The position numbers were made by a program, and so were the translations under genes. This document shows, piece after piece, positions 3,753-25,472 of a DNA stretch of 64,000 nt. Each line of letters starts with the position of its first letter. The first letter of the stretch is position 1. The notes under the pieces are model-generated. The model was given only the letters and a program-made list of their open reading frames with translations. It did no database searches and had not been told where the DNA came from. Source of the stretch: Paramarasmius palmivorus (Eukaryota > Basidiomycota > Agaricomycetes > Agaricales > Marasmiaceae); NCBI GenBank assembly GCA_037176845.1, contig JAYKXP010000019.1, positions 558,001 to 622,000 on the forward strand. Direction: 5' to 3'.

Positions 3753-3766
3753 ATAACCGTCTACTG

Positions 3767-3881
3767 CATAGCCCGCTACGACGTTCGCGCCCGACGTTTC
3801 CCCGAGTCGCGCCGGTCCACATTTGTATTCGAGCCCGTCAAAGGGTCTTAAAATAGAAGTCATGATTTTATAGCACGTGCC
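3767..3881. repeat. Left terminal inverted repeat of the large element
   Basis: 115 bases starting CATAGCCCGCTACGACG and ending CACGTGCC. They are the reverse complement of 25341-25455 with about 6 mismatches by eye. The inner end carries the palindrome CACGTG. Confidence 0.85.
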
Positions 3882-4860
3882 CTAAACGTTTAAACCCTGA
3901 CGCCTGAATTATAGTTTGTTGACAAGTTCTCCAGCACTACCTGGACTATACTCCCTGTCAGTGGTTCCGTTACACTGCTCCCCTTTCAGGACACTTGGTC
4001 AGCTACTCAAAACCGCTGGGTTACTACAGGGTGATATTTGAGTGTTCTGAGGGACAAACAGAAGCTGGAGGATACTCCGATAGAGAGTATGACAATTGGA
4101 TGTAGTGGGCCAAGATGAGTAGTTCTATGACACTATCCAGATTTCACCGCTAACGGGCAGTTTCTGGACACCTTTCAGTCGACACATGTCTCGAGAAGTT
4201 CATTTACACCACTCCCGCAATCAGATACACTCAGAAGTGCACAGAAACCACTGCTTGGGGTTCCGTATGCCGAATCGTTTCTAAGCACCACTCAGTTCGG
4301 CCTTCTGATCCGGGCGACGACTGGTGCCAGTGCACTGTACAATCGCATCAGATCAAGTAAGTGGTCATCTTGCACCATTCGGAGGTTCTTACAAGCTTCA
4401 GTCGCGTTCATTACCAAAAAGTGCCCACCCCGAACTATTGAGCCGGTCCGCTTGTAGGAAACCTGCATGCACCGACGATACCTTTGCTCATGAGTCGTCA
4501 GGCAATGTTTATGTACCTTGCTGGCTTTGGTGAGCTCTCCACATTGCTAATAACCTATCTGTTCCTAGCGGTTCTCAGGAACTACTCATTGATCAACCAG
4601 GTTTAATAGTTTTTGCACACCGCCCATCGTTCCGGCAGCCATCACTAGTGCATGAGCACTACTCCCTTCTCCATACTTGAAGAGTAGTTTAGCAAAACCT
4701 CTCGGAGTTTTTGATGATTTGGCTGGCTTCCTCGCGCTACTCGGCGCTTATCATCTTCAATGGTTCATTCACACTATTCGGTCTTTCATCAAATGTCAAT
4801 AGTGTATTTGCACTACTCCATCTCCGGTCCTATGTGAGTGGTTTTTCCACACCTTCGATG
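3882..4860. repeat. Left subterminal array of a 22-bp dyad motif
   Basis: About ten copies of an imperfect dyad: 7-bp arm, 8-base loop, 7-bp arm, consensus GARTRGT-N8-ACYAYTC. Good copies are at 3959-3980, 4117-4138, 4232-4253, 4758-4779, 4797-4818 and 4836-4857. In most left copies the loop ends in AC, the complement of the loop start seen on the right. No gene is visible in the array. These are candidate transposase binding sites. Confidence 0.65.
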
Positions 4861-4915
4861 GTGTCTCTTATCATGATCTTTCTGCCTTTCTCACGCAGGC
4901 TTTCTTTCTTTCCCG

Positions 4916-5730
4916 ATGTTGTCCCCTCTTCGTTTCCCCCCCCAAAACTTTGGATCCGCTCGGGCCTGTGCCAACTGCATGCAGAGGCTTAATGACGATC
5001 AACGCAAACGCTGTGGTGGATGCGAGAGTGTTTCTTACTGTGTATGTATCCCTAGCTATCTTGAAAAATGAACTGACGGTGTCTGCAGAGCAGAGAATGC
5101 CAGAGAGCACACTGGCATATACATAGAGACAACTGTGCTCCCAACGATTATGCCTGGGCTGACGTTCCCGATCACGACAAGCCTCTTGTCAGCGCCGCCA
5201 GGAAATTCCTAAATCGACACTTGCACCCATTAACCCACATGACCAGCAAACTCTTCCAGCAGCACATCGTAGAACTCCCCGGCAATCGTGGATCGTCCGA
5301 CACCGCGTTTTTTGACACCTGGAAGGAAACATCCCGTGCATTTGGCCTCCTAGTGCGTCTACAAGAAAAACCCGACACCACCCGTCAAAATCCCTCTAGT
5401 GGTGACGTCTTCTACGTGCCACTCAGTGCTCAGCTGGTCCCGCTAGACCTCGTTCCTGGAAACCAATCCAAGCGCCTTTCATTGATCAACAAGAACGAGC
5501 GTGCGGACGGGTTTGTCGGTGCCTTTGTCGTAGCTGCCGACATCCTTGCCAAAGATGGAACCCCATGCCGCATCATTACCGCTACCATGTCTGTCGGTTC
5601 AGTTCACCTCTTTCGTCGTTTCCGTGTTGCCAATGATGCGGAAGGCGAATTGGCTGCAACCCGACAGCAGCGGATGCGTAGTGCCTTTTCCACTCCAACT
5701 GGTTCTACTGCAGATCTAAGCTCTGCTTGA
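4916..5730 (+). CDS. MYND zinc-finger protein (candidate cargo gene)
   Basis: Exon 1 is 4916-5041 and exon 2 is 5089-5730; the GTATGT...CTGCAG intron keeps frame and the product is 255 residues. An N-terminal MYND finger (about residues 18-58) shows the spacing C-x2-C, then CGGC, then SYCSREC, then AHW.IH...C, all ligands present. MYND fingers bind proline-rich peptides or pair with catalytic domains; none such follows. The remaining 190 residues are an unrecognised globular stretch without membrane segments. The start gives MLSPLRFPPQ, 18 residues before the first cysteine. Many free-standing MYND proteins are expanded in agarics. The gene lies inside the large element and probably represents captured host DNA, but could be a resident element gene. 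Confidence 0.75.
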
Positions 5731-6146
5731 ACGACCAATTCGTTTCTGGATTCTCGTAGGTGCTAGTTCCTGTCACATGAAAACTGCCTTGCTGAATAGA
5801 TTGCGTCAGAAATCGTACATCCAATGTCGGAAACCTGGCAGTCTGTTTAGGTAGAAAAAAATGTATATCTCCCATGTCGAATACACGTGTTTCCCTCATC
5901 TGTCTAGTGCATAAAAACCAGTCGCAAAAATTGAGAACCTTACGTTTCGTGTCTTCTATCAGCTCTGTTCCCTTGGTAACTTCCTACCCGCTATTCGCCG
6001 ATATCACTGATACACTCCGTCCTGGCCTTGTAGATACAAAGTCTCTCTGTATGAGGTGGAGAGAATGGGGTATGTATTCATGAGCGAATAGATAGACAGA
6101 AACAATTATTATCTATAATGACATCCGAGATATGAAGTAACTTGGA
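5731..6146. other. Intergenic, convergent MYND and F-box-like genes
   Basis: 416 bases between two 3' ends. No gene, repeat or structured RNA seen. Confidence 0.3.
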
Positions 6147-7264
6147 CTACCAAGTGATTGAGAACCCATAGAACTCGACGAACATCTGCCTGTCCACAGA
6201 AAGAGACTTCCGAAAGTTCTTCCAGCGCTCCTCAACCTTTTTCTCTGCAATCTCCCAGACTGATTGATAGCAAACATCTGGTTTCTCTACCCAAACCAGT
6301 AAGTCGGTCACATGGTCACGACGCCAGTCCCCAACAGGAAACATGGCCTTTAGATCCGTTGACAGCTCGCTGTACTGCTCCTGGATGAGAAATATGACCG
6401 ATGGGTGTACGCTGCAGCGTACAATTCCTTCCAACTCAAATGGTATCCCATCCGCATCGAGAACCTCGAGAACCACCACCTGAATCGCAGGGGGAACCGC
6501 AAGGGACAGTATGCTTTCGTCGATTTGCGTTTGCGTAGCAGTTGACCCATAGGAAAGGTAAAGATGGGTGACGCTGGTAAGCCAGGTAAAATCCTGGTGT
6601 GTGATCGTCACTGCATCCATGGAACACCAGACGTCATATACCAGGCGAAGCTTCCGGAGTGCTGGAAATATGGCGTTCAACGCATCCGCCTCCTCGTCAG
6701 ACGTGGGATAGAATAATTCGACTGGAAGAATGAGTTCGTGAAGTCGGTCATAATCCTGATCCAGCAACGTTTCCTTCAAATTAGGTATCGGTTCGTATGT
6801 CGACACTGAAAGTCGAGTGATGAATGGTGCAAGACGAGTAAGAAGCGTCTTTAACGGTAGGAGGTCTTTTTCGGACATGGCTGTTTTTCTGGACGGTGGC
6901 CAAGCATCGCGCTCCTTGAGATAGTCCGGAGGAAATGCCCCATCGCAAACTGTTGGCCATGGTGATAGTTGGAAGCCGAAGCAAATCCAGACGGTTCGCA
7001 CGTAGCGAGCAAGGTAGGGGTACAGGATGAGGGTACGGTTCAGAGACCGCAAACTTTTTGACCTTGTGAACATAATTTCGCGATAGAATGTGCTGTACAG
7101 CCTGGTAATCTTCAGTCCTAGGTACTCATACGACAGAAATGAACAACGCACAAGACATTCCATCCTTTACGAATCAACAGAATGCGTGTATTCCTCCGGC
7201 TCCCCTCTTCGCGAAGTACGCCCGTGAGGATCTTGCCCCAAACGTCTGCGGGGAGCTGCACCAT
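6147..7264 (-). CDS. F-box/LRR-like protein with a doubtful 5' join
   Basis: A 338-codon frame (stop at 6147) has regularly spaced leucine- and hydrophobic-rich segments typical of agaric F-box proteins, including a YPYLARYVRTVWI segment. An F-box-like start (MVQLPADVWGKIL) lies just upstream at 7264 in another frame. The two can be joined by a 53-base GT-AG intron (about 7118-7170), or the copy carries a 1-base frameshift near 7165; the first drops residues that resemble the family. An extra 5' exon starting at 7380 is possible. F-box proteins link targets to SCF ubiquitin ligases through Skp1, and the C-terminal part would recognise substrate. It lies inside the large element and ends toward the MYND gene. 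Possibly a pseudogene. Confidence 0.5.
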
Positions 7265-7526
7265 CAGGGAAAGACGACTAGAGCAGAAACTTTGGGGCGA
7301 GCTTACATGTAATTTTTGACTGGTGTAGGAGCACTATTGGCATCCAGTGGTGCAGCTGCACTTGCTGGGGTCTGATCCATCTCGCTTGCTGTCGTTTGGA
7401 GGCGTTTGAAAAGTATTCGACCTCTGTTGTTGACCGGCGTCGACGCAGGATAGAGAAAAAATAGTTGTATTAACGTGAGAGTTCTAGTACGTGGACAATG
7501 TAATTACGTCTTCAAACATCCAATGT
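7265..7526. other. Short spacer between F-box-like and orphan genes
   Basis: Holds the possible first exon of the F-box-like gene (7307-7380, minus strand) and the 3' flank of the orphan gene. Nothing else is seen. Confidence 0.25.
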
Positions 7527-10500
7527 TCAATCATCAACCTCCACATACCCAGTTGTGTTCTTGCGTGTTGCAGTGACCAAGGTACGTCCGTCTTCAGCTT
7601 CAGCGTCCACATTCTGAGTGCTGATGATGCGGAAGTTTGCCAATTTCTGCATGATCCTCGCTGCTTGCCTGTTCAATCGGTCTTCTTCCGTCACCTTCAC
7701 ATACTGCCAATGACCCAACACATTCTTCATCTCGTAGTCGAACATCTCCAAAATGTCAAGGTGACTTTCCTGCTCAAAAGCCCGGATCAAAAACTCGCGA
7801 GTACGTGTTGGCGGCTTTGTTTGCTTCCATCCCTCCCAGATGTCCAAAACTGGGGAGTAGATCTGCTGCGTCTTCCAGAGGTAGAAACCTTTGATGGCGT
7901 GGACCGCGGAGCACCCACAATGAAGATACCCTGCCACCAAGTGGGAGCGCGAAACCTTCTTCGTCGGTTCCCCTGTGACGCCGTGAACCTTCAAGTGAAC
8001 CTCCTCTTCTTGTTCCCGTAACATGAGGATCTTCTTTCTCTTCTTGTCGTCCGTGATGCGCTCGAGCATTTCGTCGAAGTTCAGCAGCTCATTGACTTGT
8101 ATGTTGGCGCTCTCCTTTCCGTAAACCAACTGAAGTAATTTCTGGACCCACAGCGGCGTCCGTTCGGCGTCATCTGCCTTCCCAGAATTCTTGTCATTGA
8201 AGTGGTGAGTTATACATCGTACCATCTTCTCGCGGGTTGTCAGGAGAACTAAAGTCAACTCTGGACAGATGTTTCCACATTCCACCAAATTGCCGGCATT
8301 AGCACGAGCCCAGGTGCGAAGGGCATACGGGATGTGTTGGTCGTCAGGGGAGTTTGCGTTGGGGATGAATTTGGTGTGAATTAGTCGGTGTAGAGCATCT
8401 ATTATATTGTCAGTTTACATCTCATTCCTCTGATGTGAGTGTTACTTACTTCCCATTCTTGTATTCCAGGCTTGCAACGCTAGAGGATCCTATCAATAAC
8501 AACACTATTTCCTTTCCGGCACTGTACTCACATTCATTCTCTCGTCTTGTATACTTCTGGTCCTCCTCATCGGATGAATTGACTCGTCCTGACGTTGCAA
8601 TATCATCATCGTCATCGTCATCGCCATGCGCATCCATGAATGCCTCTTCCAGAGCTATATTGCGGCCTCCCTTAGCTGAAACGTAAAATGTCAGTTCACT
8701 TTCGACGCTGGACCTAAATCAACACCGACGTTTCGTATTTTTCTTCCCTTTTCCTTTCCCCTCCTCATCTTTCATTCCTTCTCGTTTACACCAACGAGTG
8801 AATATGGCAAGCGAATCAAGTTTGGGTTCAAGAATGAACTCTGAGCTTGTGCTCCCAGCAGCAGCCTGCGAGGATGAGCCACCGGATGAGCCACCTTGGT
8901 GATTCTCCCAAAGATTGAGGTCAGGCAGTGTGTCCTCAGGCTGCTTGGGTGCAACCTGTTCTCCATTTTGGTTGTATCCGCCACAGTACGAGGTTCCTCC
9001 AGCCGCCATGTGCGAGCTTCCATGTGCTCCAAGGGTCCCTGGAATCTGGGGACGTGGGTGCTCATTAAATCCGCCGTCAACGCTCATCATGGCCTCCATT
9101 GAAGGCTGGGATGGACCCGTGTTCGTGTTAGTGGGATCCGTCATGGGCCCATTCCACCATACGCTACCGCTGGACGGAATCTGTGTACCAGATACATGTC
9201 TGTTACTGAATTCGGCGGAGCTGGAGGCACCGAAAGGCAGGAGCCCACTGTTTATTGTGCCGCCAGCGTCGCCACCATACCTCTCGCATCCACCCAAGTC
9301 CGACATAGCATAACTACCATACTGCTCGCTAAAGCTAGCCTGACCTTGCGAGCATCGTGACTCCACTGGTCTCTCGGTATCCTGTTGGTCAGGAAGCGCT
9401 GTCTGCACACCGGGAATCGGTAGCTCCGGGACGTGCTCCTCCATTGGATCCACGTCGGCATGGCGCTCGTGAGAAATGATGTCTCCGCTGTCATTCGGCA
9501 ACTCCGGAGGTCTGGTTTTCCCTTCAGTGTCCTTCTCCACCGCATGTTCCTCTTCAGCACTTTCCCCTTCGTGTATAGTGTGAAGTTGTGCGCTCTGGGT
9601 CCGTGTGGTGGCAGGGTGCTCTTTCCCTTGACTGGAAACCAATGAAGTCTGGAGTGATGAGGTCATTTCTTCTGAAGCATGCGTGTTGGGCTGTTCAAGT
9701 GAAGTGCGCTGGGTCTGTGTGTTGGTAATATCTTCTGCCTCCTGAATAGGTATCTTAGACGCCTCCTGGTTCCCAGAAGTGGTAGTCCCAGATCCTATTT
9801 CACCATCAGTTCTTACTTTATCATCATCCACAGAACACATACCTTGACCCCGAGAAGCCTCGTCGCCATCATGAATATTCTCTCCTTCTACTTGAATCAT
9901 ATTATTCCCAACAACTATCTTCATCAGCACTGCAGCGTCCTCCGTACGTGGAGTTTCTGGCGGCTTAGATGCATCCACTACATGCTCCGAGTTCAACTTT
10001 GGTTGGGCAGGTTCCTCTGTCGGCGTCAGCGCTTGATTAGGCGCCAGACTTGTTTCTCCTGCACTCTCTTGCGCCGAAGCTTGCTGAGAAGTCTTCCTAC
10101 TGGCGGGATGAGTTGACTTCGGCACCTTTCCAGTGGGTTTCGCTGGTGCCAGTGTTGCATTTGCACCCGTCAACACCTCACGCTTCTGCTGTTGAACTCG
10201 GGTGGAGCGGCGGGTACCTGGCCTCGTCGGCTCTGACAATATTGCGTTCAGCTTATATCCTGCATACATGAATCCCAACTGGCAATGCTCACCCTCGTCT
10301 TTTCCCTTTGCCTTCTTTGGTACCCCATTATCCAGTCTTTTGTTGGCCTTTCTCTTGTTGGGCATGATAGGCTCTGTGATAGCCGTTCAGATCAAACACT
10401 TGACGCACGATACTCTAACCACACACCATCATTGTCCGAAAGCTCTGTTAGCGCTGAATCCGATCCGTCCAAGTCGACGTAGTCATTCGACTGACTTCTT

Positions 10501-11042
10501 GTGGCAGGTTGGCGTGGAACCACGGTCGTCTCAGGAACACGGGTTTCTTCCGCAGGTAGAGCTGGTGGGAGAATATGGTGAGATGTGCGCTACATTGACC
10601 AAAAAAAAACACAAACTTACGCTTGTTCAGTTCCACTTCTTGCAGTTCCTTTCGCCGTGTTTTCTCCTCTGAATCTGCTGCTTTCAGTGCCTCGGAAAGT
10701 TCGCTCTTTCGGTGTTGAAGGTCTTTTTTGGCCTGTTCTTCTTCGAGCGTGCGCTTCTTCTTTCCATTCACCTTCTTCAGCTGCTCTTTGAGGCGTCGAT
10801 CAGTAGCCCGTATCTCATTTGCATTTTTTCGAGCAGCGTTCCATGCAGTGAATGCCTGTGAATGGGCTGTCGTAACACAGGTGAGCATCGTTGACCTAAC
10901 TGATATGTGTCGCTTACCCTGATCGTATTCTTGTGCATTCCGGTCTAAAAATATATGTTGTAAGTCACCGTAATTTGTTTAAAAAGTTTTTCTGCATACA
11001 TTGATATTTTCCTGTCGTTGTAGGAGGCTCTGAAGCCGACAT
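7527..11042 (-). CDS. 1046-residue orphan protein of the large element
   Basis: Eight exons on the minus strand join in frame: 11000-11042, 10918-10944, 10621-10866, 10427-10561, 8730-10373, 8532-8675, 8450-8479 and 7527-8398. The N-terminal 115 residues are a highly charged coiled coil rich in K, E and R. A lysine-rich, nuclear-localisation-like stretch (PNKRKANKR...PKKAKGK) follows. The 548-codon middle exon is low complexity and rich in T, S, E, Q, G and P. An aspartate run (seven D) precedes a more globular 330-residue C-terminal half with LRTWARANAGN and CGNICPELT segments. I recognise no domain. Four internal junctions with stop codons in the unspliced frames, all phase-compatible, argue for a real and intact gene. 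One donor (GTCGGT) is weak. A nuclear accessory protein is a guess from charge alone. Confidence 0.6.
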
Positions 11043-11524
11043 GAGAGGAGAGAAGTGATAAGGGTTGTTCCACGATCCCTCAGGCTCCTCCGCTTGATTC
11101 CGGTAGCCGCGTGCCCAATATTTGATGGTCCAAAACAATCTCATACTCACTGTGGGTTGGTAATGTTATATTTTTCCCTCATTTTGGTCATTACTTGCAC
11201 CCCGACATATTTTTTTTACACGAGAAATTTATTTGTGACGAACCCTACTCGTGTGACGAACCCTTGGCCTATGGGGCGAGTCGGCGACACAGGCCAGATA
11301 AACATAGCCACATGATCACGACCATGGTCTCTGGACTGGAGGACTTGAGTCTCTGGGGTGTGCCTCTCTTTTTCACCCTTCTCTTGTTCATCCCCCGTCT
11401 CTTTCCTACTGATTTCTTCGACACTCTAATGGGTATGCCACTAATTTTTTGTTCTTTCTTCCTCCTTTCTCATCCTTTTTATTCAGTCGGCTTCGATTCA
11501 GAACCTTCGACAAGCAAAGCAACA
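11043..11524. other. Divergent promoter region of two element genes
   Basis: 482 bases between the divergent starts of the orphan gene (minus) and the hybrid-binding gene (plus). The plus-strand frame stays open upstream from 11195, so an earlier start for the plus gene cannot be excluded. No TATA box is convincing. Confidence 0.3.
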
Positions 11525-12190
11525 ATGGACCGTGGCCCCAAGAGTGCAGCAACAACGCCCACGATGACGAGCAAGTCCAAGAGTCCCTCGAAGCCTCAAC
11601 TAACTGCCGCCGATGAAGACGACGAATATGATAAATACAATTTATCGGCTGAGATTACGCAAGGTATGCTCAGCATTTGTCACATCGCAGTACACTCATT
11701 GTATCCCAGCCATGATCGATGCCTGCGTGCAGGTAGAAAAAGATTATGAAGCATACCAAGCAGCAAAGCGTCAGGTTCCAGTTAGTCGGGCAAAATTGGA
11801 TCAGGTTATTGGTATGCAGCGCTTTTTTTTCGTTCTTCCTCTGCCTCTAACCGCCACATCTGATAACAGATGCATTTGATCGACTATGGGACAAAGAGTC
11901 CCAAAGGCCTTCAACCTCTGGTACCACCGCACCTCTCCCACCGCACTCTGCAGCGCCACCAGCTCCCAGGACACCTGTATCATCCCCACCAAGTAGCCAA
12001 GCTCGCACAGTTCCGCCATTGACTCCGACAAAGACGACTCTTCCACCGCACTCTGCAGCGCCAGAATCTCCCAGGAAGCCCTTATCGTCACCACCAAACA
12101 GCCAAACTCGCACAGTTCTACCTTCGACACCGACAAAGACGCCGTTACGTGGCTCTCAGCCACCTCCCGTGACACCACTAAAGGAATACC

Positions 12191-12554
12191 TGTTGGAATT
12201 CTAAATATAGATGTCACTTGACAAGTTATTTTCACTTTATTCCGCCTATGCCACAGTTACTAAGAAAGCAGATATACATAGAACAGTTACTTTGACCCAC
12301 TTGTACCAACATCTACTGACAGTTACTGACACTGACTGTGCAGTTATTTCTAGTTCACTTAGTATCTATTATCGTACCTTTGGGATTATCTTTTATCCCT
12401 ACTCATGTATAAAAGCTAGACAGAAAACCTACATACAATATTGAATCACATCAGTTCATCTTGTGTTCTCTCAACCCCTCTGGTCACCAGCTATCGTTTA
12501 TTCGCGCTTACCTGCGCTATCGCTGCTAACAGAGTTCAATCTAAAACTCTGACA
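12191..12554 (+). repeat. 5' LTR with TATA box
   Basis: 364 bp, TG...CA ends. A TATAAAA box is at 12408-12414, a likely promoter for the element RNA. The sequence straight after it (GGTTATGGGCCC) is where a primer-binding site should be, but the matching tRNA is not clear. Confidence 0.9.
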
Positions 12555-12738
12555 GGTTATGGGCCCCGGTCTATAAACCTTAGCCGAACCAGAGTAATAC
12601 CGATTTCATATTGGTATAGTGGCGAGTTTGGGACGCCGTAATATCCCCAAGGAACAAAGAACCAAGATCATACATCGAGTGGCGAGCAGGGACGCCGGAA
12701 TATCCCCTACCCAAAGCAAAGGACTATTGGACTAGTGT
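12555..12738 (+). repeat. Retroelement leader with a duplicated 28-base segment
   Basis: The leader holds two close copies (starting 12619 and 12679, 60 bases apart) of a segment reading GTGGCGAG..GGGACGCCG.AATATCCCC. Paired copies in the untranslated leader may have a packaging or dimerisation role; this is inference. Confidence 0.5.
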
Positions 12739-15085
12739 ATGTCCGATAGAGGTAGCCGTTATCAATCCAGAAGCGGTACCCCAGTACAAGGAATTTTCGA
12801 TCCAGAACAAATATTACGAGGATCTAGGAACCCTAGCAGGAATCCTAGCAGGACACCTACACCAGTAGGAAGAAGAACAGGCAGTCCATCGGGACAGCAA
12901 CAGATTATTCCCAGCATTTGGGACATCAGATTCAAAGGATACAGAATCTGGTGAAGAAGAGATCGAACTTGGTGAAGAGTTTGATCAGGAAACCGAACTT
13001 GCTGAAGAGTTCGAAAAAGGATTAGGATTTGCTGAAGAATCCGATAAAGAAGAACAGGACCTAGAACAGGAACAAGAGCAGGACAAAGAAGACTCAGAAC
13101 AGGAATCAGAAGCTGATACTGATAAACCTGTATCTGACGAAGACAAAGGAACACCTGCCGACGAAGAGAAGGACGATCCACCAGAATCGCCCAGCATAGG
13201 TCCCAAACCGAAACCGAGAAAACCATCTCCCAAGAGACCACAAAAGGAAGAATCATTTGATTCAGACGAAGAAGACGATATGGCGTCAAAAGCGATTAAG
13301 GCATTCGATAAAGTGCCGGAACTCAAGCATGATGGATCGAATTGGTCCATGTGGTCAACAAGGGTAGAAAGAGCTACCAGATCAGTTGGATACAAGAAAT
13401 ATCTGGAGAATGAACCAGAAAAGGACAACGACAAGGAGGCAGATGCAGACGCAGATCTGTTAAATGCCATTATAGGAAAACTCCCGGATACGATATTCAG
13501 GAGATACAAGTCAACGGAATTATCTCATAAACTATGGGAAGGATTAAAGAAGGATTACGACACGAAGAATCCTTTTACGGAAGCACATTTGGAACGAAAA
13601 CTCTACACCGCAACCTGTACCGACATTTCCAAGGTCAACAAGCACATTGATGATCTACTCGAGATCAGAAATGAATTGGAAGGATTGAAGATCAAAGTTT
13701 CGGATGATCAATTCAAGAACGCCCTCATAGCTTCAGTGCCAAACTCACTGACTGCAACAATCACTGCACTGGTTACTGTTTGTAAACAGAACCAGGAGGA
13801 TTTGACAGTTGATTCACTCATCGCTGCAATTCGAGCAGAAGCTAGTGGACAGACATTACGGAAACATCCAGAACGGGAAAAAGTTCATTATTCCCGAGAT
13901 CATTCCAACAATAGAGGCCGAGGATTTAATAGCCGAGGAAAAGGCCGGAGACAATTTAATGATCGACAGGGCGGAGATAACAGAGATCGGAAGGAAATCA
14001 CATGCTTCAGATGTCAAGGAAAAGGGCATATCGCTGCAGGATGTCGTTCAAAGCCAAAGTCCAGGAAATCAGATGATGAATCTGAGGAATCAGATAAATC
14101 TGAAGAAGACAAGCCAGACAAACCATGGAGAAAGGCAAAGGAAAAGAATCACAGTGCAAATGAAAGTGCTGTGAGAGCTGTAGAAAAGGAAATATGGGAA
14201 GAAGGCACATGGTTAGCAAGGGAAATAAGGGCCGTAGAAGAATTTGTGCCATTCACTGAATGGACATATGAAGAAGAAGAACCCACAAATCCCATGTCGA
14301 CAGAGACAAACCTGGAGCCATATCCCAAGGAAAGGAAAGAAACAGCATACATGGCCGTGGAAATGCACACCACGATGGCCACAATGGTCGATTTACAGAA
14401 CCCGATTGATAGCAAAGCAATCATATGCAGAGAAAACCGAATGGATTCTCAACAACGCCGTCAAGAAGGCTATATGGGACAACCAAAGAATCAACCACAG
14501 ACAACTACAGAGACCAAGGACCATGAAATTCATGGAGGACAGACATTCAAGGAACACCATTGTTGCCAAATATGTCACCAATTTATCCAGCACATACTTA
14601 TGGGGGAGAAATTGCATCCAGAATGGCTGATGAAAGTCATAGGACAGAAGGATGAAACAAAGGAAAATACCCCAAGGGATGGAGAAATGGAACAGGAAAA
14701 TGGAACAGACCAGACATTGGCACACAAGGAGGACAAGACAGATCCAGAAAGTCTTGAACCATTGCAGATATCACTCGTCGAGGGGGAGCACAAAAACTCG
14801 ATCAACGACATTTCAGAACAAGTCGCCGAGATGAATCGCAATGCAGGAAACAGGTCACAGAAGGAAAAACAAGTTGGACCTAAACAACTTGTAAACGTCA
14901 ATCCAACAGGAGAATATTCAGGAACGGTCAAAGAAGCAGAAGTGGAACCACCATATCACCAATACTACCACCGACAAAAGATTAAACACCGAGATCAACA
15001 GAACACAGAACATCGCCACCGGATCACACATAGGAATCACCGAACAGAACACACGAACAAAGAATTAGAGTCAAACCCCGGATAA
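12739..15085 (+). CDS. gag: Copia gag-like polyprotein, enzyme-less
   Basis: The main frame starts at ATG 13280 (MASKAIKAF) and ends at 15085, 601 residues. It shows the UBN2/Copia gag fold (about residues 10-185: GSNWSMWSTRVE, LWEGLKKDYD, then NALIASVP), and a CCHC zinc knuckle CFRCQGKGHIAAGC at about residues 242-255. After residue 280 it becomes low complexity and runs to within 30 bases of the 3' LTR, where intact elements would carry integrase and reverse transcriptase. An upstream frame 12739-12954 (MSDRGSRYQSRSGTP) plus a shift to the second frame (open from 12869) would add an acidic N-terminus; the shift is one base and no known slippery heptamer is in the overlap, so an indel is likely. 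Gag alone can form particles that use a partner's enzymes. Confidence 0.75.
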
Positions 15086-15112: not shown

Positions 15113-15476
15113 TGTTGGAATTCTAAATATAGATGTCACTTGACAAGTTATTTTCACTTTATTCCGCCTATGCCACAGTTACTAAGAAAGCAGATATACA
15201 TAGAACAGTTACTTTGACCCACTTGTACCAACATCTACTGACAGTTACTGACACTGACTGTGCAGTTATTTCTAGTTCACTTAGTATCTATTATCGTACC
15301 TTTGGGATTATCTTTTATCCCTACTCATGTATAAAAGCTAGACAGAAAACCTACATACAATATTGAATCACATCAGTTCATCTTGTGTTCTCTCAACCCC
15401 TCTGGTCACCAGCTATCGTTTATTCGCGCTTACCTGCGCTATCGCTGCTAACAGAGTTCAATCTAAAACTCTGACA
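15113..15476 (+). repeat. 3' LTR
   Basis: Same 364 bp as the 5' LTR with no difference seen. TATAAAA lies at 15330-15336 and might drive the downstream host exons. Confidence 0.9.
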
Positions 15477-16130: not shown

Positions 16131-16229
16131 TATGTATTGGCTTATCGTTTGCTCTAAATACTGTGAAATATATACCTCTCCAGTCCAGCTATGTATCGAC
16201 TCACCATTTGTCCTAAGTACTATGAAATA
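16131..16229 (+). repeat. Imperfect 59-base tandem duplication
   Basis: Two neighbouring copies read TATGTAT.G.CT.A...TTG..CTAA.TACT.TGAAATA, starting at 16131 and 16190, between the hybrid-binding gene and the next element gene. Confidence 0.45.
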
Positions 16230-16480
16230 CGGTGAGCTCTCTTACCCAACGTTCAAAACGAGTGATCATATGCAACTGCGAAGCATTGTACAGGACAAAG
16301 GACATGGTTGCTCGTTTACAAATTTGGCCGTTAAAATCATAATCCCAGGCCCTACAAACTGGCTTGGTTTGGAGCGAATTGAAAAGGTTAGGAAAACTCA
16401 TGCTGAGGATGTGCAATGGAGTTGAAGCACTATAGCGAGTTGCCGCGTCTTCAACACCAACGTTTCCTTTCCTTACCGAA

Positions 16481-17326
16481 ATGCCTCGTACAAAAAAATA
16501 CAAGACCAAGAAGGACCTTGCAACAGCTAATCGACAAAAAGTGGCAAGACATTATGCGAAGTATTCTACGACCAATGCTACAGGCTCGACGATTCACTCA
16601 GACTCGATCTATAGAAACCGGGAGCGTATTCTTACACAGAAGAAAGAGGCTCGCACTCGGGCTCTCTTGAAAGCGCAGACTGAACACAAGAAGGAAGAGT
16701 ACGAGACTTTGGATTCACGATGATATTAGTATACTGACTATTGCTCACATATTTTCAGAATCGAGATGCGGAAACGTCGTAAGGAGTCACACTGGAAAGA
16801 GCTACAGCGAGACATGAAGATGCACCATGACTCTAAGTACGTCAGAGAAGTCTGTATGATCCTTCTTTGCTCATCGACACCCAGGGATCCTCTCGACCAT
16901 ATTCGTACGCTCTACCGTGGACTAGACAGGCATACAAATCGGGCTCCCAGCATTTTTGTCGAGAACGCCTGCCGTCATTACCTTCAATTCAAACAAAGCA
17001 CTGCACACAACTTGGCCTTTCAATGCCCTATTCGTAACGCCCATATTTCTATATCCAACCTATTACGAGGGACCCAGTTATTCTCAGAGCGGCTACTGAG
17101 AGACTATGGATGCACAGATTACTTTAAACAAGCAGAGTCATTTGCTCGAAGGCTGCGCCTGATCATCTACTGTATCGATGATATCGAAGGGTTTCTCCTT
17201 GACGAGGATGCGGATTTAGGAAAGGCTTACGAGCGCAACGAGTTGAAAGTTCAAAACCCCCAGGTGAAGAAATGGGTTGATGGCGAAGAGGATGTTCCAG
17301 AGACACTGCCTGATTGGCTAGCTTAA
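16481..17326 (+). CDS. Small basic-N-terminus protein A of the large element
   Basis: Exons 16481-16698, 16759-16836 and 16885-17326 join in frame to 245 residues. The start MPRTKKYKTKK is followed by a strongly basic segment (ANRQKVARHYAKY, later YRNRERILTQKKEARTRALL) that resembles the basic region of bZIP-like proteins. Lysine- and arginine-rich helices continue to about residue 100. The rest is helical, leucine-rich, and ends in an acidic tail (DGEEDVP). No named domain is recognised. Families of this look are multi-copy in agarics. A DNA- or RNA-binding accessory role is inferred from the basic segment. Gene B follows in the same direction 177 bases later and shares the opening pattern MxRT..., ANR....Y. 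Confidence 0.6.
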
Positions 17327-17503
17327 TATATTCACTTTGGCTGTATACTACCCAGAGAGCAAAATCTTCTTTGTATTCAGCGATATTGAGTATCGTTCAT
17401 TACATTCAGTGCTCACCGGGATGATCGTGCAATTTTCCGATGGTGGTCGAACAACGGCGGAAATCGTCCTCAATGTGACATGTGACAATCGTTTTTCTCC
17501 ATT

Positions 17504-18293
17504 ATGGCCAGAACAGTCGCGGAGCGCAAAGCTGCAAACAGGTTAGCTGCTGCCAATTACCGGAAGAAGTAGGTCTTTGAAACCCTCTGAATTGACTAAG
17601 AATAATCATCACAGCTGGCAGGAATCTAGAGCTTACAAGGGAAAGGGCCCGAGAAAGAATGCGCCAAAGGCGGTTTCTCAAACGGTGTGTTAACTCCAGT
17701 CTTTGTAACACTCTGCTCATTGCGCAATAGGAGCAAGTGCGAAAGATGGTTCGATGACAATGGCATGACTAGGTGCGGTTACTTTTAGGGAAATAAGCAG
17801 CCTGCTCACTATCTCGCAGGAGCCGTCAAGATGAACAGGCCAAAGACGACAAAATGAAACCCCCTTTCCCCCCTCGTTATCGCAAGCAGGAAGCCCATAT
17901 AGGAGAGGAAATACCAGAAGAAGACGAAACGGAAGACAATGTTCAAGGAGAAGAAATGCAGGATGATCAGCGTCGACGTCCTTTTGACGTTCGTCAAACG
18001 CCAAAGGAGAGGCTTTTCTTCGAGTGCGTCGTAGCTTTGAATATGGTTCAGACACTAACATTTAATCAATCAGACCTCACCGCCTCTGGGACGAGTTTTA
18101 TTTTTCGATACAGAATGTGTACAGAGCTTTTCGTACCCTTACAGAATCCAGTAGCCAAGATACATGCCATGATCTATTTCGCGAAATGGTCATGATGGCA
18201 ACTCATGGCGAGGGACACCAGCACCGCAGCAGCTTACTGCACCATTTTTGGCCAGAGGGGAACCTTAATGGAATCGGACCAGCGAAGGGATAA
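17504..18293 (+). CDS. Small basic-N-terminus protein B of the large element
   Basis: Five exons (17504-17568, 17622-17684, 17731-17772, 17820-18023 and 18074-18293) give 197 residues in frame. The N-terminal 60 residues are almost all basic (MARTVAERKAANRLAAANY, then RERARERMRQRRFLKR). An acidic linker (about residues 90-115) and a C-terminal helical part (LWDEFYFSIQNVYRAF) follow, ending FWPEGNLNGIGPAKG. No known domain. Likely sister of gene A by layout, not by alignable sequence beyond the first segment. All five splice phases agree, so the frame looks intact. Confidence 0.6.
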
Positions 18294-18494
18294 TCCGGTG
18301 ACACAGGTCCCTCCTGCGTTGTCTTGTTACTGCATCATTACCCTCACGTAGCACCTCTTGTCTTATGTACCCGAAGGAATCACATTTCAAAGTCAGAGCC
18401 GTAGTACAAAACAACCTCAATTATTACATAGGTAAGGAAAGTAGAATAGCATTTGTGATTAGAGAAAACTATAGAGGGACATCAAAGTGTAATT

Positions 18495-20091
18495 CTACTG
18501 AGTATTGGGTAACTGTAGATCAGTGTTCGGTACGAGTCCATCTAGCATACTGAGAAGATTGTCCTGACCCGCTTCGCTAAGAGCACACCTCAGGCCTCTC
18601 AGTACCCGTGTCTGCTGCTCCTGTCGCTGAGACAGCGCGTCTAGGTCAGCAAGAGCATTAGCAACAGCGGACCTGGCCTCCTCTGCCTCCCGACGTGCCT
18701 TGGCAGCTTGATATTCAGCAGACGCTACATCTCGTCGACGGGCAGCAATAAGCGAAGTATAAATATCCTCCGTGAGATCATAAAGCTGATCCAAGCTCTG
18801 TGCTGCTTCGTCGCGAAACGGCTTGGAGACATAATTCACAAAACCATGTCGTGCACTAGGGAGCTGACTTGTGATCATTAGATATGCTCCCGTTTCGTCA
18901 CAGAGTTCTTCGCACTGTGGAGATGTAAGGAGATAGAATGAAGGATGTATTAGTCGACGTACACGGTTCACAATGCCTGACAGCTTCTCATCAAAGCGCT
19001 TTTGAACAGATCCCTTAGTTAAAGGCTTCTTGCGAGCGCGGACACGAGGTATCTCTGTGAAGGAGGTTAGTGTGACGTTATGAAGCAGTTCTTGAACGTA
19101 CGCCAGGTTTCAGCACCTTTGAAGGCGCCATGCACAAAGCCAAATGGTGCGTTGGAACGTGACACTCGAATGCGGGGACGAGGCTGACTCGCAGAACCAA
19201 CTGATGAACTTGGTGTAGGAGTGTTTGATGGGCTGGGCAAAGTTTCGGCCGCAGTCATTCCCCTCGGAGCGGAAATTGAATTTCCATCCATGGTGAAAAG
19301 GCGACGGGGATGCTGAGGCGTGAAAGGGGAAGATCCCCGACTTGCAATGGTGCGAGAAAGAGGAGACGAGTCAGCGGTGTAAAGTCCACTCCGAAAAAAG
19401 GCTATCAATGTTGTCAGCACATCCAAAGGACCGGTCAAATCTAGTCATACGAACCAGCACCCGAGGTAGTGCTGCTGGATGCCGATGGTGGAACAACAGG
19501 ATCAAGGGCAGCGGGCCTTACGGGGGTACCTGTTTCATTTTCCAGGGCCGGGTCAAGCGCGAAAGGTTGTGCGTGAGATGCTGCAGGAAACGATGAGGAC
19601 GCTGAAGGTTTCAAACTTAGCTAAGAAACACTGAAGAAATGGTCCACATACCAGGTTCAGAATCCCGTTGATCACCAGAGGGTACCTCTAGAAGTTCACT
19701 CTCTCTATCGTCAAGAGTAGGAGTAGGCGGCAAGTGGTCGTCGGGAGTTGAATTTGGCTTATTGAAGTGTCAGTAAAGAACAGAGTCATGGACACTTGGC
19801 ACGTACCATACTGACTGGCACAGGTGGGGACTGTACGTTTGTGACCGAGTCCTTCTGCGGTATGGGATTGAGTATGAAAGAGGTCACAATCCAGTGAAGA
19901 CTTACCTTGGTTTTTTGTCGTCCTTTTCTAGCTGAGGCACTGTGAAGAGGGCAGTCCTTCTGCAGAGTTTTGCCTCCACATTTCTGACAAAGACGCGGCG
20001 CTCGTTGTTTCTTCGACTTTTCCAAGTCGAGCCTTCGCGGTGAAGGCTGAGATTTGCGAGGAGAACGGCGTTGAGGAGACGAGGAGACCAT
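18495..20091 (-). CDS. Coiled-coil partner gene, divergent from the KDZ gene
   Basis: Minus-strand exons begin at 20091 (MVSSSPQRRSPRKS). The first (19906-20091) has a small cysteine motif, C-x2-C then C (RLCQKCGGKTLQKDC). Middle exons (19807-19854, about 19652-19757, about 19440-19620) are serine/proline/threonine-rich linkers; the join near 19650 needs a weak donor (about 19690) to keep frame and is uncertain. The exon near 19104-19391 leads to the last exon, with stop at 18495: a conserved-looking domain (HPSFYLLTSP, CDETGAYLM) and a C-terminal alanine/glutamate coiled coil. The start is 86 bases from the oppositely oriented KDZ gene, so the two are probably co-expressed. Function unknown. 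Confidence 0.5.
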
Positions 20092-20177
20092 GATGTTGGT
20101 AACCGACAGAAAGGAATCTCATTGGAAAAATTGCACGGACCTTTATAGTGTTGCGAGATTAGTCAGCAAACAGAAAG
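20092..20177. promoter_or_regulatory. 86-bp shared bidirectional promoter
   Basis: Only 86 bases separate the two divergent start codons, so both genes must use promoter signals here or within each other's coding region. No TATA box is clear. Confidence 0.4.
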
Positions 20178-23100
20178 ATGCTACCCCCACTACTCGACGA
20201 AGATGGTCCACACAAGCGTCGCGGATTACCTGCTCTTCCGCCCACAGATCCAAGGAGACCTTTCAACTATCCAGGGCACCACTTGCGGGATGAAGAGAAA
20301 CGGAGAAGTCCCAAAAAGAGAGTGACTGCACATAAACGGCGCAGTGGAGCGGGTAGCAGCACTACACGAAAACGTCACAAAGGTTCAGTGCCGTTTAATG
20401 CAATAGCTGACCACGAAAGCGGACTATCTGAAGGGCTGGGGTACGATGAAGAAATGACCATGGGTGGAGGCGCTGAGATACTGCCAGCGGATTCGGACGT
20501 AGACGAGGACTTTGAATCCTACATCAGACTAGTTGAGTCACGATGTGTAGGGTTCATTAGGATAAGCCAAGCGGTCTATGTGGTACAAGGGTGGAATGTA
20601 AAGGAACGAATGGCCGCGGTGAGTACTGTTATAGAAAGTACGGCGACAAATGCTCATGCAACGTGGACAGGAGACTTGGTATCATATGCAGGTCCAGCAC
20701 ATTGGTGACGATATAAGCCTGGCTTGTATGTGTCCCCAAGGTGGCTTTTCCGACAAGCCATGCATCCACATGCAGTACTATACGGAGTTTCGAGATGAAA
20801 GATTCCGTGAAGAAGAGGATCTGCCATTTCGAGGTCAGTGTCGAGCAAAGAGGTGTAAGATTGAACTAACACTTTTATAGAGGGTAAAACAATTATGTTC
20901 TGGAGGGAGCAGATTGGCTTTGAGCAGGAGTTGTGGCTCACACGATTCTCAGTTCGAGGCCATTCCGAAGCTTTGTCGAATCGAGCGATTGTGACGTATG
21001 AAGGGCTGGACGATGGTTTCGGTAGCTGGCGTTGTTCGAAGGATAAGTCAGCTTGCTCCCATATTCCGGCTGCACGCAAATTCTTTGGTCAAATCTTTGG
21101 TCGTGAAGGCGATATTGACGAGACGCCAGTCACTGTTAACAATGGTCCCACGGAAGCTGAAGAGGAGGATTATGTTGGTAAGTAACCTGGATCGATGACT
21201 CGAGTGCGATAATCTGATGCGGCATATTAGTGGATGATGGTGTGGGTTTAGAGCGGGCCATATCTCACCTGCCAATTATGCCTCCACCATGGGCAATGTT
21301 ACCTACAGACCACGTTCATTACATCCGCACACCTGTCGATCTGATTTACCCTGACACGATTGAAATACGGAATCGGAATTGCGGCAGTCTATGTCAACAT
21401 GAAGCCGCATACGACACGGAACGACCACTGGTGGTTAAAGAGTGCACAATATACACTCTCACTGGCACCAGAGTCGCACAGATCGAGCTCCAACAATGCG
21501 CACACTGCCCTACGCGGCGACACTGTTACGTTGGACCTGATCCCCGAGACATTGGGCTGTTTAATTTCAACAATTCTGTGCTATTTTCGCACGAACTTGT
21601 TGACGAATACACCAGTCGGTTCTCTAGCAGTGTTACACCCTTTTCTGCGTTTATCCAGGCGATGAGCAGGGTATATGAACGTCGTGGGTGCCACTTTGTG
21701 AAAGAAGACTTGTTTCGTTCGGTTTGGTTTGCCTACGTGAGCATCCAAGATCTGCGCGGGGACATGTTCTGCAACCGATGTGGGGCTGCACCAGAAAATG
21801 TGATATGGGATGGAATGACGCTGTCGTTCAGCAAAAAACATCTAAATGACTCGCTAAAGCCGCCAACAGTCGTGACCGAAGATTCCCCTGCTCGGCTACG
21901 GAAGTATCACAAGCAACTTGCCTGGATGCCCATGCCATCCAAGGTGCTGGGATCGTTTAGAAGGCGGGTACTGGCGTGGCTGCGCAAAGGAAAGAGAAGG
22001 GCACCACAGGAAGAGGAAAGTGACGAAGAGCAGCCTACTCCCGCTGGACCAACAAATAACTTTTATAGTGAGCTGCTTTCAATCGCAGCGACCTTTACGG
22101 GGGTATCACCAAGCCTGGGGACCTTGTTTCTTCGGGTTTTTGGGGAGTTGAACAATAACGGTGGCATGGATAGGTCCTTGCGACGATGGTATTCCATGTT
22201 TTTTGAGCAGGTATGTGGATATACAAGAGTTTCCATGAGTGTTATTGACGTCTGTCCGGCAGCTGGTCGCAGAGGAACCCGCGGTGCAGATGGTCAACGA
22301 GGCGGCGCTGGATCGTTTGACGGAGTTTATACGATGTCCATCACATAAAACTGCATCCACGCTTCTCGACATTCCAGCGCTGATGAGGGTGGTAGAGAAG
22401 GAACTGCAAGGTCGAGATAGGTGTCCAGGTGACCTGCTTGGTGTTTGCCAGTGGATGCAGACGAGAGTGAGTGTGGTACTGGGCGAGTTAAAGAGCGGGG
22501 GCCTTGCGACACTTCCGCTACTTCAAGCTCAGCGTAACGACGTAGATGAATGGAAAGCGGTGAGTCATGATATGATTCGAGTTGAGTGTCCTAACGACCA
22601 TGGTGCAGACAGGAAGTTGCTATGGAATGCAACAGATACGGGCGAGGCCTTCGTATCCGTTACTGAAGGGGGACGGTGCTCCAGACAAAGGAGACCAGCG
22701 AGGCGACAAATGTTCCAAATACTACTCGACGTACGGTGAACGGAGGTTGACAGGTGGCATTATGTGTGCGTGGTGCACACATAGCATTTGCTACGGATTC
22801 CATTGCATACCCAAAGGGGAGGGCAGGAACGATGTCTTTTCCGCTATGGTGACAAGATGGCCACAGGCACCCAAACGGGTGATATACGATTTTGCCTGCA
22901 CTCTGGGCCCTTATTGCATGACACGAGAGCCCGAATTCTTTGGGAAGACACAGTTTCTGGTAGATGGCTTTCATGCTAAAGGGCACTCCAAATGCTCTAC
23001 GGCATCGTTCCTGTCCACGTACACCGAGGTCAACGCCAATCTCTCTCGGCTGAACTCCAGCGCAGCGGAATGCGGGAATAGCGGGTTGGGAAGAATTCGA

Positions 23101-23196
23101 AAGGCGGTCAGCTATATGAGGCAAAACCGCGCAATACTGTACACGAAGGTGTTCTTGTCGATATGGAACCGATTACGGATGAGGAAAGATAGGTGA
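20178..23196 (+). CDS. KDZ-type transposase-like protein with SWIM and CxC cysteine clusters
   Basis: Six exons (20178-20618, 20692-20833, 20881-21177, 21231-22210, 22263-22559 and 22609-23196) give 914 residues. The N-terminus is basic and disordered. At about residues 159-173 lies a SWIM-type finger, C-x-C-x9-C-x-H (ACMCPQGGFSDKPCIH). Cysteine clusters follow: C344, C348, C383, C386 and C392, and MFCNRCGAAPENVIWDG near 480. The last exon carries the signature of the CxC5/CxC6-associated KDZ class: GGIMCAWCTHSICYGFHCIP, GRNDVFSAMVTRWP, YDFACTLGPYCMTREP, VDGFHAKGHSKCS, NSSAAECGNSGLGRIRK. The family is a lineage of fungal DNA transposases. Just before the SWIM finger, an extra CSC segment (20640-20680) lies in a different frame within the first intron; homologous proteins might include it, so a frameshift is possible there. 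Position near the right terminus fits a transposase. Confidence 0.7.
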
Positions 23197-25340
23197 ATAT
23201 ATTGAAATCAGTTGAGCGGCAAAGCTGTTATTTTGTGACCAAGCGGTTGACATCAACTATCCACGCTTTCGCGAGGCAGGAAGATGGAAGGGGTGGGATT
23301 TCTGATTGCAGGTAGCACCTAGACACGAAAAGAGTCAGAAGAGATTCTGAGTCGTGCTCATAAACTACACACTGGAGAAGGATATCAGGGTAGTGTAGGA
23401 AAACCACCAAAACTTGGAGCAGAGACAAATAGTGTAGGTAAACTATTCAGGATACCTCGTGATGGAATGGTGCCCATAAACCAGAGAGATGGATCGAGGT
23501 AGCGAGTGGTGCAGGTAAACTATCCGGGATGCCTCGTGATGGAATGGTGCCCATAAACCAGAGAAATGAGCCGGGGTAATGGGTAGTGTCGGTAAACCAT
23601 TCGGGATGCTTTATGATGGAATGAATGATCCCCGTCAACCGGAGAAATGGATCGCAGTGGCAAGTGGTGTCGATAAACCTTGCCACAAGACCACTGCCTG
23701 AGGGGTGCGCGAACATGACTGATACCTAGGGAACAGAAAGCGAGCAGTTCAGACAAATGGTAAGGAATAGTGATGAAATACTCACGAATGACAGGGAACT
23801 AGTAGGTGTAACGTTGAAATTCCTGATTGCGGATAGCACCTAGACGTGAACAAAGTTAGAAGAGGTTCTGAGTAGTGCTCATGAACTACATACCAAAGAA
23901 GGGGATTAGAGTAGTGCAAGCAAACCACTAAAACTCGGGGGAGAGAGGAATAGTGCAAGGGAACTATTCAGGATACCTCGTGATGGAATAGTGCCTATAA
24001 ACCAGAGAGATGGATCGAGGTAGCGAGTAGTGCAGGTAAACTATCTGGGATGCCTCGTGATGGAATGGTGCCCAGAAACCAGAGAAATGAGCCGGGGTCA
24101 TGGGTGGTGTCGTTAAACCGCTCATCGCAACACTGCCTACGTGGTGCGAGAACACGTGCCCGGTACCCGAGTAAAGGAGAGCCAGCGATTCATGAGTTAC
24201 CAGAAAGGGGAAGAGGTGAACTGTACGAGACCAAGAGAAGACAGGTGAATGGCGAAATCACAAATGAAGTGACGGGTGGTGTCTATAGACTATTCACTGC
24301 GAAGGGGTCATTAGAATAAGACCTGAGAAGCGGTAAATCAGATCACGTTGGGAACCGTGCTAAAAAACCACTCACCGATATCGGAAAGGGGAGCAGTGCA
24401 AAATCACCGCCAAGAACCGCCAAGGAGAGGAATGGTGCTAATGAACCGTTCGAGATGGGTTGCACGGAATACAAGACTCAACAGAGCACCGTCAGAACAA
24501 TGCCATGAAACCAGCGAAGCGAGACCTGAGGAAATTGTTCGAACAGTGGAAGTATGGGGAGGTGCCTATAAGCCAGCAAATCAGACAAACCCAGGAGCAG
24601 TTTCAAGACACCACTCACCAACGGCGGAGATGTTGGAGTGGTGTGCAACAACCACGCGGTGATACGGAACCGTGCAGAAGAACCATTCGGAATGAGACAT
24701 GTCTGGATAGCGCGCATTGCCATGTGTAGTGAGCCCTAGGAATATTGGTGGTTTGTAAAGCTGTCAAAGCAAGTATTTTGTAGACCAACTTACCTCTACG
24801 AGCCGATAGAACGCGACGACGCCGCTGGTTTTGAGCTTTGTAGACGGATTCGACTGGGTGGTGCTAGGGGACTGCTCATTCGCCGCATGAAGCTCAGTAG
24901 TCCATGTACACTTCAGAGCTCGGATACCGGAGTAGTATGGTGGAACTTCTCGGTAAAGAAGTGGTTGAACAGTGTCTAAAAACCACCAATTACCGGGGAT
25001 CATTCGAATAGTGCGACAAAACTACTCACCTTAGGACACAGAAATCTTCACATACTTGCTCATCCACCTATCCCCAAGCACCTCTAGGGCCGCCTTCGAA
25101 CCACCTCCAGTTGTCCGACCCAATATCGAACCAGATATGACCCAATAATAGGTCCCTATCCAACGTTTGGCCGCTGGCTGGGTCCTTGCATTGAGTAGTG
25201 CTATGGCACCTCCGTGTCGCTTTTCGGGTGTCAAGAGCCAGTGGTGTTATAAAACCACTGAGAAATCGTGTGAGTGGTGCTGAGGAACTTGTGGGTAAAC
25301 TCTACGTAGCAGGTAAGAAAATTATTCCGTTACACTTTGC
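23197..25340. repeat. Right subterminal array of 22-bp dyads, with longer tandem repeats
   Basis: Over twenty copies of a dyad with 7-bp arms and an 8-base loop, usually starting GY and ending AA. Perfect-arm copies: 23948-23969 (arms GAATAGT/ACTATTC) and 25239-25260 (CAGTGGT/ACCACTG); a near-perfect one is 25006-25027. Nested in the array is a 77-bp tandem repeat (copies from about 23447, 23524 and 23601), itself within a roughly 521-bp direct duplication (about 23285-23600 against 23810-24120). No gene is supported in this 2.1 kb. Confidence 0.7.
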
Positions 25341-25455
25341 GGCACGTGCGACTAAATCATGACTTCTATTTTAGGACCCTTTGACGGGCTCGAATACAAA
25401 TGTGGACCGGCGCGACTCGGGAAAATGTCGGGCGCGAACGTCGTAGCGGGCTATG
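25341..25455. repeat. Right terminal inverted repeat of the large element
   Basis: Reverse complement of 3767-3881 with about 6 mismatches over 115 bases. Starts GGCACGTGCG and ends GCGGGCTATG. Confidence 0.85.
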
Positions 25456-25472
25456 TACTTAACGCCTGCCCC

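Follow-up and report, generated by a model that had tools for sequence, protein, structure and literature searches.

A probable multi-gene KDZ transposon of about 20 kb, with a divergently transcribed partner gene, in Paramarasmius palmivorus

Do the genes that lie beside a KDZ-type transposase in a large fungal transposon belong to the element, or were they merely carried along? The question is raised by a stretch of 64,000 nucleotides from the agaric Paramarasmius palmivorus (the window; contig JAYKXP010000019.1, positions 558,001 to 622,000, of assembly GCA_037176845.1), in which a transposase gene and several other genes lie between inverted repeats. A first-pass annotation had described this locus as a single cargo-carrying KDZ-type DNA transposon, with eight genes, of which the accessory ones might be part of one mobilisation system. 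In the single assembly examined, one mobile unit is indeed found, its gene set recurs elsewhere and its accessory genes are tied to the transposase in dozens of copies; the gene count and the captured status of two genes had to be revised, and two domain names lack support from profiles. These results suggest that some of the additional genes are the transposon's own and not stray passengers. With a probability of about 0.8, we read the locus as a multi-gene cut-and-paste KDZ transposon, one of a family of about 20 kb in P. palmivorus, with a divergent, probably repeat-binding partner and modular accessory genes. Contigs of the assembly are denoted below by C-numbers.

The limits of the element are given by its terminal inverted repeats (TIRs) and its target-site duplication (TSD). 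The TIR pair, first described as 115 bp long, is real: the arms are 129 nt long and 91% complementary (115 bp at 94.8% in a second comparison), and they form the sole inverted pair of at least 30 nt found within positions 1-30000 (seed 14). The repeat noticed in the flanks is also present, and its 11 bp, GGGGTTTCCGG, are better read as an 8-bp TSD, GGGGTTTC, followed by CGG. Because CGG is part of the element end CGGATAACCG, which is found again at C10 and C188, the element begins at 3750 and not at 3753. Comparison of the copies reveals two different termini, GGGGCAGG and CGGATAACCG. Compared with the genome, the left TIR gives six matches: the two arms in the window, two more that form a pair on C10, and one end each on C188 and C287.

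The transposase had been called KDZ-like, and the domain searches agree. The open 921-aa gene carries the cysteine cluster CxC4 (PF18717, 142 bits), a feature of the KDZ superfamily, and one exon matches the KDZ domain (PF18758) with E 6.3e-06 and 26.5 bits against a curated cut-off of 26.6, which we count as a match; over the whole model the score is 22.8 bits, and a homologous small element on C313, related to the window copy through the KDZ exon, scores 37.1. TIRs with an 8-bp TSD, also a feature of the superfamily, were found in six of eight units (the window copy, C10, C280, C313, C8 and C9); the repeat is exact in the first five and measures 8 or 9 bp on C9. Neither CACTA termini nor a 3-bp TSD, as in CACTA/EnSpm elements, was seen in the element, and its 8-bp TSD, GGGGCAGG/CGGATAACCG termini and TIRs differ from the 7-bp TSD, CA..TG termini and absence of TIRs given for Kyakuja in the excerpted text of PMC12730594. 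No TET/JBP dioxygenase exceeded the 34.9-bit cut-off in the genome; two matches at 23.9 bits lie on C207, which holds none of the 66 KDZ matches. The captain of Starship elements carries the domain DUF3435. Among the open reading frames (ORFs) of the element that were scanned, a part of all its ORFs, none had a Pfam match to a tyrosine-recombinase captain, and the TIRs, TSD and KDZ domain speak for a class other than Starship.

That the gene set should recur between other matching TIRs was borne out on C10, where a second pair (264954-286589, 21.6 kb), flanked by the TSD GCCAATGG, bounds the same genes, unchanged in order and strand: MYND (+), F-box-like (-), orphan (-), D/HBD (+), basic (+), partner (-) and transposase (+). 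Pieces longer than 150 bp are about 69-78% identical in nucleotides between the two copies, and no match was found outside the element in the flanks compared. C188 has the same genes apart from MYND, which was not found in the stretch examined. TIR-bounded units on C280 (7587-28194, 20.6 kb, TSD GTTTTTTG; MYND, F-box-like, orphan, partner and transposase), C103 (20.8 kb; F-box-like, orphan, partner and a decayed transposase) and C223 (19.2 kb; orphan, partner and transposase) agree with the window copy in how partner, orphan and transposase are ordered and oriented. The exact window subfamily is of low copy number (the window copy, C10, C188 and fragments on C287 and C348), and small KDZ elements on C313 (5.8 kb), C8 (5.5 kb) and C9 (6.2 kb) match in the transposase only, without the accessory set.

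The copies also bear marks of rearrangement. Relative to gene order, the termini of the window copy and C10 are swapped; judged by eye, the known ends of C280, C188 and C287 are oriented as in C10 and those of C103 as in the window, which fits recombination between inverted TIRs flipping the element interior. TIR length varies from the 129 bp of the window copy through 931 bp (99.1% identical) on C10 and 1.5 kb (97.4%) on C280 to 2.0 kb (99.95%) on C223. Between C188 and C10 (57.6-61.6 kb of C188), a 3.9-kb block with the F-box-like and orphan genes is 96% identical whereas the remainder is 72-84% identical, a sign of block exchange between elements by recombination or gene conversion. The C223 element (within C223:28949-55949) has no exact TSD, yet the near identity of its 1980-bp TIRs marks it as recently homogenised or young; a different ORF, of 507 aa and with no Pfam match, occupies its left part.

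The strength of the tie between accessory genes and transposase was assessed genome-wide. Of the 66 KDZ matches, 55 were used as loci (11 were dropped as fragments, second pieces or weak), together with 44 of 45 partner, 13 of 15 MYND and 40 of 41 basic-protein matches and all matches of the other families; only the best candidates were scored, so that the counts are lower bounds. Near a KDZ gene lie 42 of the 44 partner matches, all 42 on the opposite strand and at a mean of -4.17 kb (upstream; standard deviation 0.29), whereas by chance 0.07 of the 44 would be expected in this slot, and 1.2 anywhere from -25 to +10 kb. All six matches of the N-terminal partner exon are likewise near KDZ. The orphan gene has 34 of 37 matches at KDZ loci (27 of the 55), every one of the 34 on the opposite strand. 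By content, 17 loci hold partner, orphan and F-box-like gene, nine partner and orphan, 16 the partner only and one the F-box-like gene and orphan; 12 hold none of them, including the three small elements and the loci on C302 and C37, both situated no more than 4.6 kb from a contig start. For the partner and the orphan, membership of one mobilisation system, as proposed for the accessory genes, is plausible.

The predicted partner protein has a basic N-terminus (its first 62 residues include 19 K+R and 3 D+E), a zinc-knuckle-like C-x2-C...C motif and a middle alpha-beta domain, followed by a long coiled coil that is predicted as a 77-residue helix at a predicted local distance difference test (pLDDT) score of about 90; its heptad pattern was matched in 9 of 5000 shuffles. 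Fifteen partner proteins were found, all from one species and annotated as hypothetical proteins. At both ends of the element, where dyad arrays had been reported, ACCACT/AGTGGT is enriched: its density is 5.0 per kb in one end and 5.1 in the other, but 0.5 per kb in the interior, for a motif chosen without a chance control. Dominant subterminal motifs differ by subfamily: the leading 7-mers are ACTACTC/AGTAGTG in C10 and C188, ACTACTC/ACCACTC at lower density in the window copy, ATAGTGC in C280 and CAGAACC in C223, with a weak signal in C103. The KDZ core changes slowly and the partner fast, identities of the KDZ exon and of the partner C-terminal exon being 98% versus 78% between the window copy and C10, and 79% versus 36% between the window copy and C280.

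In CACTA elements, TNPA binds DNA and serves end pairing or control. By analogy, the KDZ transposase would cut at the GGGGCAGG/CGGATAACCG termini and insert with an 8-bp stagger, whereas the partner, like TNPA, would bind the family-specific subterminal arrays as an oligomer and either pair the element ends or control the promoter region of 86 bp that it shares with the transposase. A repeat-binding role is proposed mainly because the pattern of a slow core and a fast partner matches that of CACTA elements, whose transposases and repeat-binding proteins show it (PMC2613891, in excerpt). The orphan, F-box-like, MYND, basic and HBD-like genes would be modular, varying by subfamily, with at least one block recombined between copies; our guess is that they modulate host silencing or protein turnover rather than catalyse transposition. 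A broader claim, to which we give slightly less than even odds, is that the Agaricales harbour a lineage of multi-component KDZ transposons of about 20 kb with a conserved transposase, a divergently transcribed and fast co-diversifying partner that reads the subfamily arrays, and a swappable accessory module that manages the host, convergent with TNPA/TNPD of CACTA and with VANDAL/VANC.

The partner and the other accessory proteins might instead act mainly against host silencing, in the manner of VANC or TET/JBP, and not in end pairing. Fast divergence beside subfamily-specific noncoding repeats resembles VANC and VANDAL (PMC10398659, in excerpt), and TET/JBP is the known KDZ passenger (PMC12730594, in excerpt), here without a match over the cut-off. 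However, no enzymatic or chromatin domain was found in the partner over any cut-off, and a gene located at the start of the transposase would suit a transposition cofactor as well. We regard an anti-silencing function as unlikely, though well worth keeping in mind.

A further alternative is an ordinary one-gene KDZ transposon with captured host genes, passengers amplified by chance as in Pack-MULEs. Consistent with this, small one-gene KDZ elements exist, and four families occur both at KDZ loci and away from them: F-box-like (18 of 36 matches at KDZ, at 18 of the 55 loci, and 18 away), MYND (7 of 13, at 7 loci, and 6 away), basic (10 of 40, one of them 19 kb off, and 30 away) and HBD-like (3 of 12, and 9 away). 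Module order is not fixed: in C27 and C252 an F-box-like gene follows closely after KDZ, and in C343, C21, C141 and C27 a MYND gene lies downstream of it. HBD-like and basic matches are paired about 1.5 kb apart in the same order at C31:328603-330379 and C12:882616-884420, with no KDZ match nearby, and possibly constitute a separate mobile or captured two-gene module. Against capture stand the partner and the orphan, which hardly occur outside KDZ loci and have the same position and orientation in subfamilies with KDZ cores 20-30% apart, and the purifying selection on the genes tested. Ratios of nonsynonymous to synonymous divergence (omega; dN/dS by Nei-Gojobori, window copy versus C10 and C188) are 0.011 for the KDZ exon (C10), 0.11 for CxC4, 0.13-0.31 for the other transposase exons, 0.03-0.12 for the partner exons, 0.04-0.08 for the basic gene, 0.16 for the orphan, 0.19 for MYND (C10 only) and 0.26-0.27 for the F-box-like gene. 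Synonymous divergence (dS) is about 0.8 to more than 4, mostly above 1, except in the F-box-like gene (0.45); saturation precludes a ratio for HBD exon 2 and for the comparison of the KDZ exon with C188. The basic exon of C10 contains a single in-frame stop, which may mark an unspliced intron. The genes tested are under purifying selection at mostly high synonymous distance, and chance amplification of captured genes is improbable. For the MYND and F-box genes, which had been called captured, the outcome is mixed: both are conserved between copies, yet about half of their matches lie elsewhere.

Joined at one TSD copy, the flanks read VWGF/RRWVALPFICATLVTSG and align without gaps to a left-flank paralogue with 11 of 21 residues identical (score 59; within this comparison no unrelated alignment scored above 47). 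Only four residues of this alignment come from left of the junction, which makes the cross-junction support modest; later right-flank exons match the same paralogue better, with scores of 75 and 96. The element therefore probably landed inside an exon of a host gene that is duplicated and whose product looks membrane-protein-like by eye. The first-pass annotation had stated that collapsing the flank repeat restores a host frame; the resemblance of the junction to the paralogue agrees with this, whereas ORF length on its own is uninformative. Paralogous pieces of the host gene lie at 900-2300 and 25481-26300, the right copy being apparently the interrupted one. Directly adjoining the left TSD is a 562-bp unit (3180-3741) with perfect 28-bp inverted ends (3180-3207 and 3714-3741), which looks like a miniature inverted-repeat transposable element inserted in the same host gene, and to the right of the element a host ORF (26283-29420) matches HAM1_N (E 2.7e-13).

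That a host gene cluster was duplicated as a segment and acquired KDZ and TIRs secondarily is hardly credible: the low copy number of the window subfamily and the single species behind all 15 partner proteins would suit it, but exact 8-bp duplications adjoin the TIR ends of the window copy, C10 and C280, the flanks compared show no match between the window copy and C10, and the window copy apparently sits inside a host exon.

Several observations weigh against a multi-gene KDZ transposon as we describe it. The MYND, F-box-like and basic families are also present away from KDZ loci. Partner and KDZ similarities to the window show a weak rank correlation (Spearman 0.23, p=0.15, n=41), so that long co-inheritance rests on position and not on trees. 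No empty-site allele of the window element, by which its mobility was to be checked, was found within this assembly; an exact TSD is absent from C223 and C103, two of the eight units examined, and C188 has no left TIR in the stretch examined. The zinc knuckle is supported by its motif and by a weak profile similarity to a CCHC protein (E 0.42), and limited searches gave no matches outside the species. The ends of C280 and C103 show no enrichment of ACCACT, the co-divergence of motif and partner was judged from few elements without a formal statistic, and the roles of the accessory genes are guesses.

Table 1. Features of the window element, in window coordinates
Feature	Position	Strand	Details
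Whole element	3750..25472		21,723 bp; ends set by TSD and recurring termini CGGATAACCG (left), GGGGCAGG (right)
Left TSD, GGGGTTTC	3742..3749		exact 8-bp match to 25473-25480
Left TIR	3758..3886	+	129 nt; related TIRs at C10, C188, C287
Left subterminal array, ACCACT-type sites	3887..4949	.	ACCACT 5.0 per kb in 3750-4949
MYND-finger gene	4916..5730	+	255-aa model, intron 5042-5088; zf-MYND 42.1 bits; C10 copy 67% aa, omega 0.19
F-box-like gene (label by eye)	6147..7333	-	exon ORFs 7121-7333, 6147-7166; 78% aa to C10, C188
Orphan gene	7527..11144	-	model ~900-1100 aa depending on start chosen; 34/37 genome matches at KDZ loci
D/HBD segment, one gene by inference	11298..16072	+	RNase H1-N-like by eye; colinear pieces with C10, C188
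Nested gag-only Copia-type LTR element	12191..15476	+	3286 bp; gag ORF 12869-15085; 5-bp flanks ATACC
Basic protein gene	16481..17326	+	261-aa model, intron 16699-16758
Conserved stretch, possible small gene	17504..18290	.	17504-17690 77% nt to C10; short ORF matches in C10, C188
Partner gene VNI00_006439	18495..20091	-	432 aa; exons of the NCBI model read in the window
Divergent intergenic region	20092..20177	.	86 bp between partner and transposase start codons
CxC4-KDZ transposase	20178..23196	+	open 921-aa model, six exons; introns 20619-20670, 20834-20880, 21178-21230, 22211-22262, 22560-22608
Right subterminal array and diverged tandem repeats	23298..25335	.	repeats 23298-24119; ACCACT 5.1 per kb in last 2150 bp
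Right TIR	25336..25464	-	inverted partner of 3758-3886
Right TSD, GGGGTTTC	25473..25480		pairs with 3742..3749

The element holds about seven genes plus a long terminal repeat (LTR) element in place of the eight genes first counted, because a "small basic" gene (19789-20118) and a "coiled-coil" gene (18498-19444) are parts of the one NCBI gene VNI00_006439. Two earlier domain names lack support from profiles: the F-box-like gene shows an LPADVW motif by eye and the D/HBD gene a resemblance to the hybrid-binding (RNase H1 N-terminal) domain by eye, and neither has a Pfam match at E<=10. The orphan gene encodes a conserved C-terminal domain (7530-8414) with C..HH and CGC motifs, and the model of the basic gene likely contains a second, unspliced intron. 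The nested LTR element, which we take to be TR-GAG-like, has 364-bp LTRs (12191-12554 and 15113-15476) that are 100% identical, and no pol domain was found in the one long ORF of it that was scanned. It appears to interrupt the D/HBD gene; within the C10 copy it has no counterpart and an open frame runs through the same point. This insertion is probably very recent and the LTR element non-autonomous.

Published systems are compared here as they appear in excerpts of the papers cited. Among the matches listed (PMC12730594, PMC12810828, PMC8290104, PMC7641404, PMC6431247, PMC9297572, PMC12062965), a scope without Iyer 2014 and Repbase, those excerpts contain no description of a multi-gene KDZ element, and priority is not claimed; the same literature describes KDZ transposases with cysteine clusters, TET/JBP passengers and fish F-box/CxC7 fusions. 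The words KDZ and Zisupton are absent from the excerpted text of a review of giant transposons (PMC6431247), and in the related Marasmius oreades KDZ and Plavaka together account for roughly half of all DNA elements (PMC8290104). Cryptococcus KDZ1-3 (PMC12810828) share with the window element a KDZ transposase with a cysteine cluster, TIRs (139-241 bp) and an 8-bp TSD (4-8 bp in KDZ2 and KDZ3), but they measure 9.2-11 kb and are described with a KDZ/CxC1 transposase only, whereas the window element has CxC4, 21.7 kb and accessory genes. The TET/JBP-bearing Kyakuja, Dileera and Zisupton elements (PMC12730594) likewise combine a KDZ transposase with a passenger thought to serve the element; there the passenger is a dioxygenase, and Kyakuja has a 7-bp TSD without TIRs, unlike the window element. 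In fish, an F-box occurs together with a KDZ-derived cysteine cluster, F-box and CxC7 being fused in one protein (PMC12062965); in the window the putative F-box, a label given by eye, and the cysteine cluster belong to separate genes of one element. Starships resemble the window element as large fungal elements with accessory genes, but they are mobilised by a tyrosine-recombinase captain and belong to Pezizomycotina, whereas a KDZ transposase and TIRs are found here in Agaricomycetes.

The KDZ passenger discussed in the excerpted literature is TET/JBP, whereas here 42 of 55 KDZ loci have a linked partner and 27 of 55 an orphan. If partner and orphan are transposon proteins, host gene counts in such genomes would be inflated. 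VANDAL elements are of the Mutator type. Their VANC resembles the partner and its arrays as a fast-diverging element protein matched to the noncoding repeats of its own subfamily, and it induces loss of silent marks (PMC10398659), an activity that is hypothetical for the partner. CACTA elements (En/Spm; the 20.5-kb Tgmt of soybean) have CACTA termini, a 3-bp TSD and another transposase, in contrast to the 8-bp TSD and KDZ transposase seen here, and share with the window element a size of about 20 kb, a transposase accompanied by a second, DNA-binding function, and subterminal repeats that diverge between subfamilies (PMC2613891). KDZ elements would, if partner and orphan are transposon proteins, allow a test of how a transposon co-evolves with a partner that reads its DNA.

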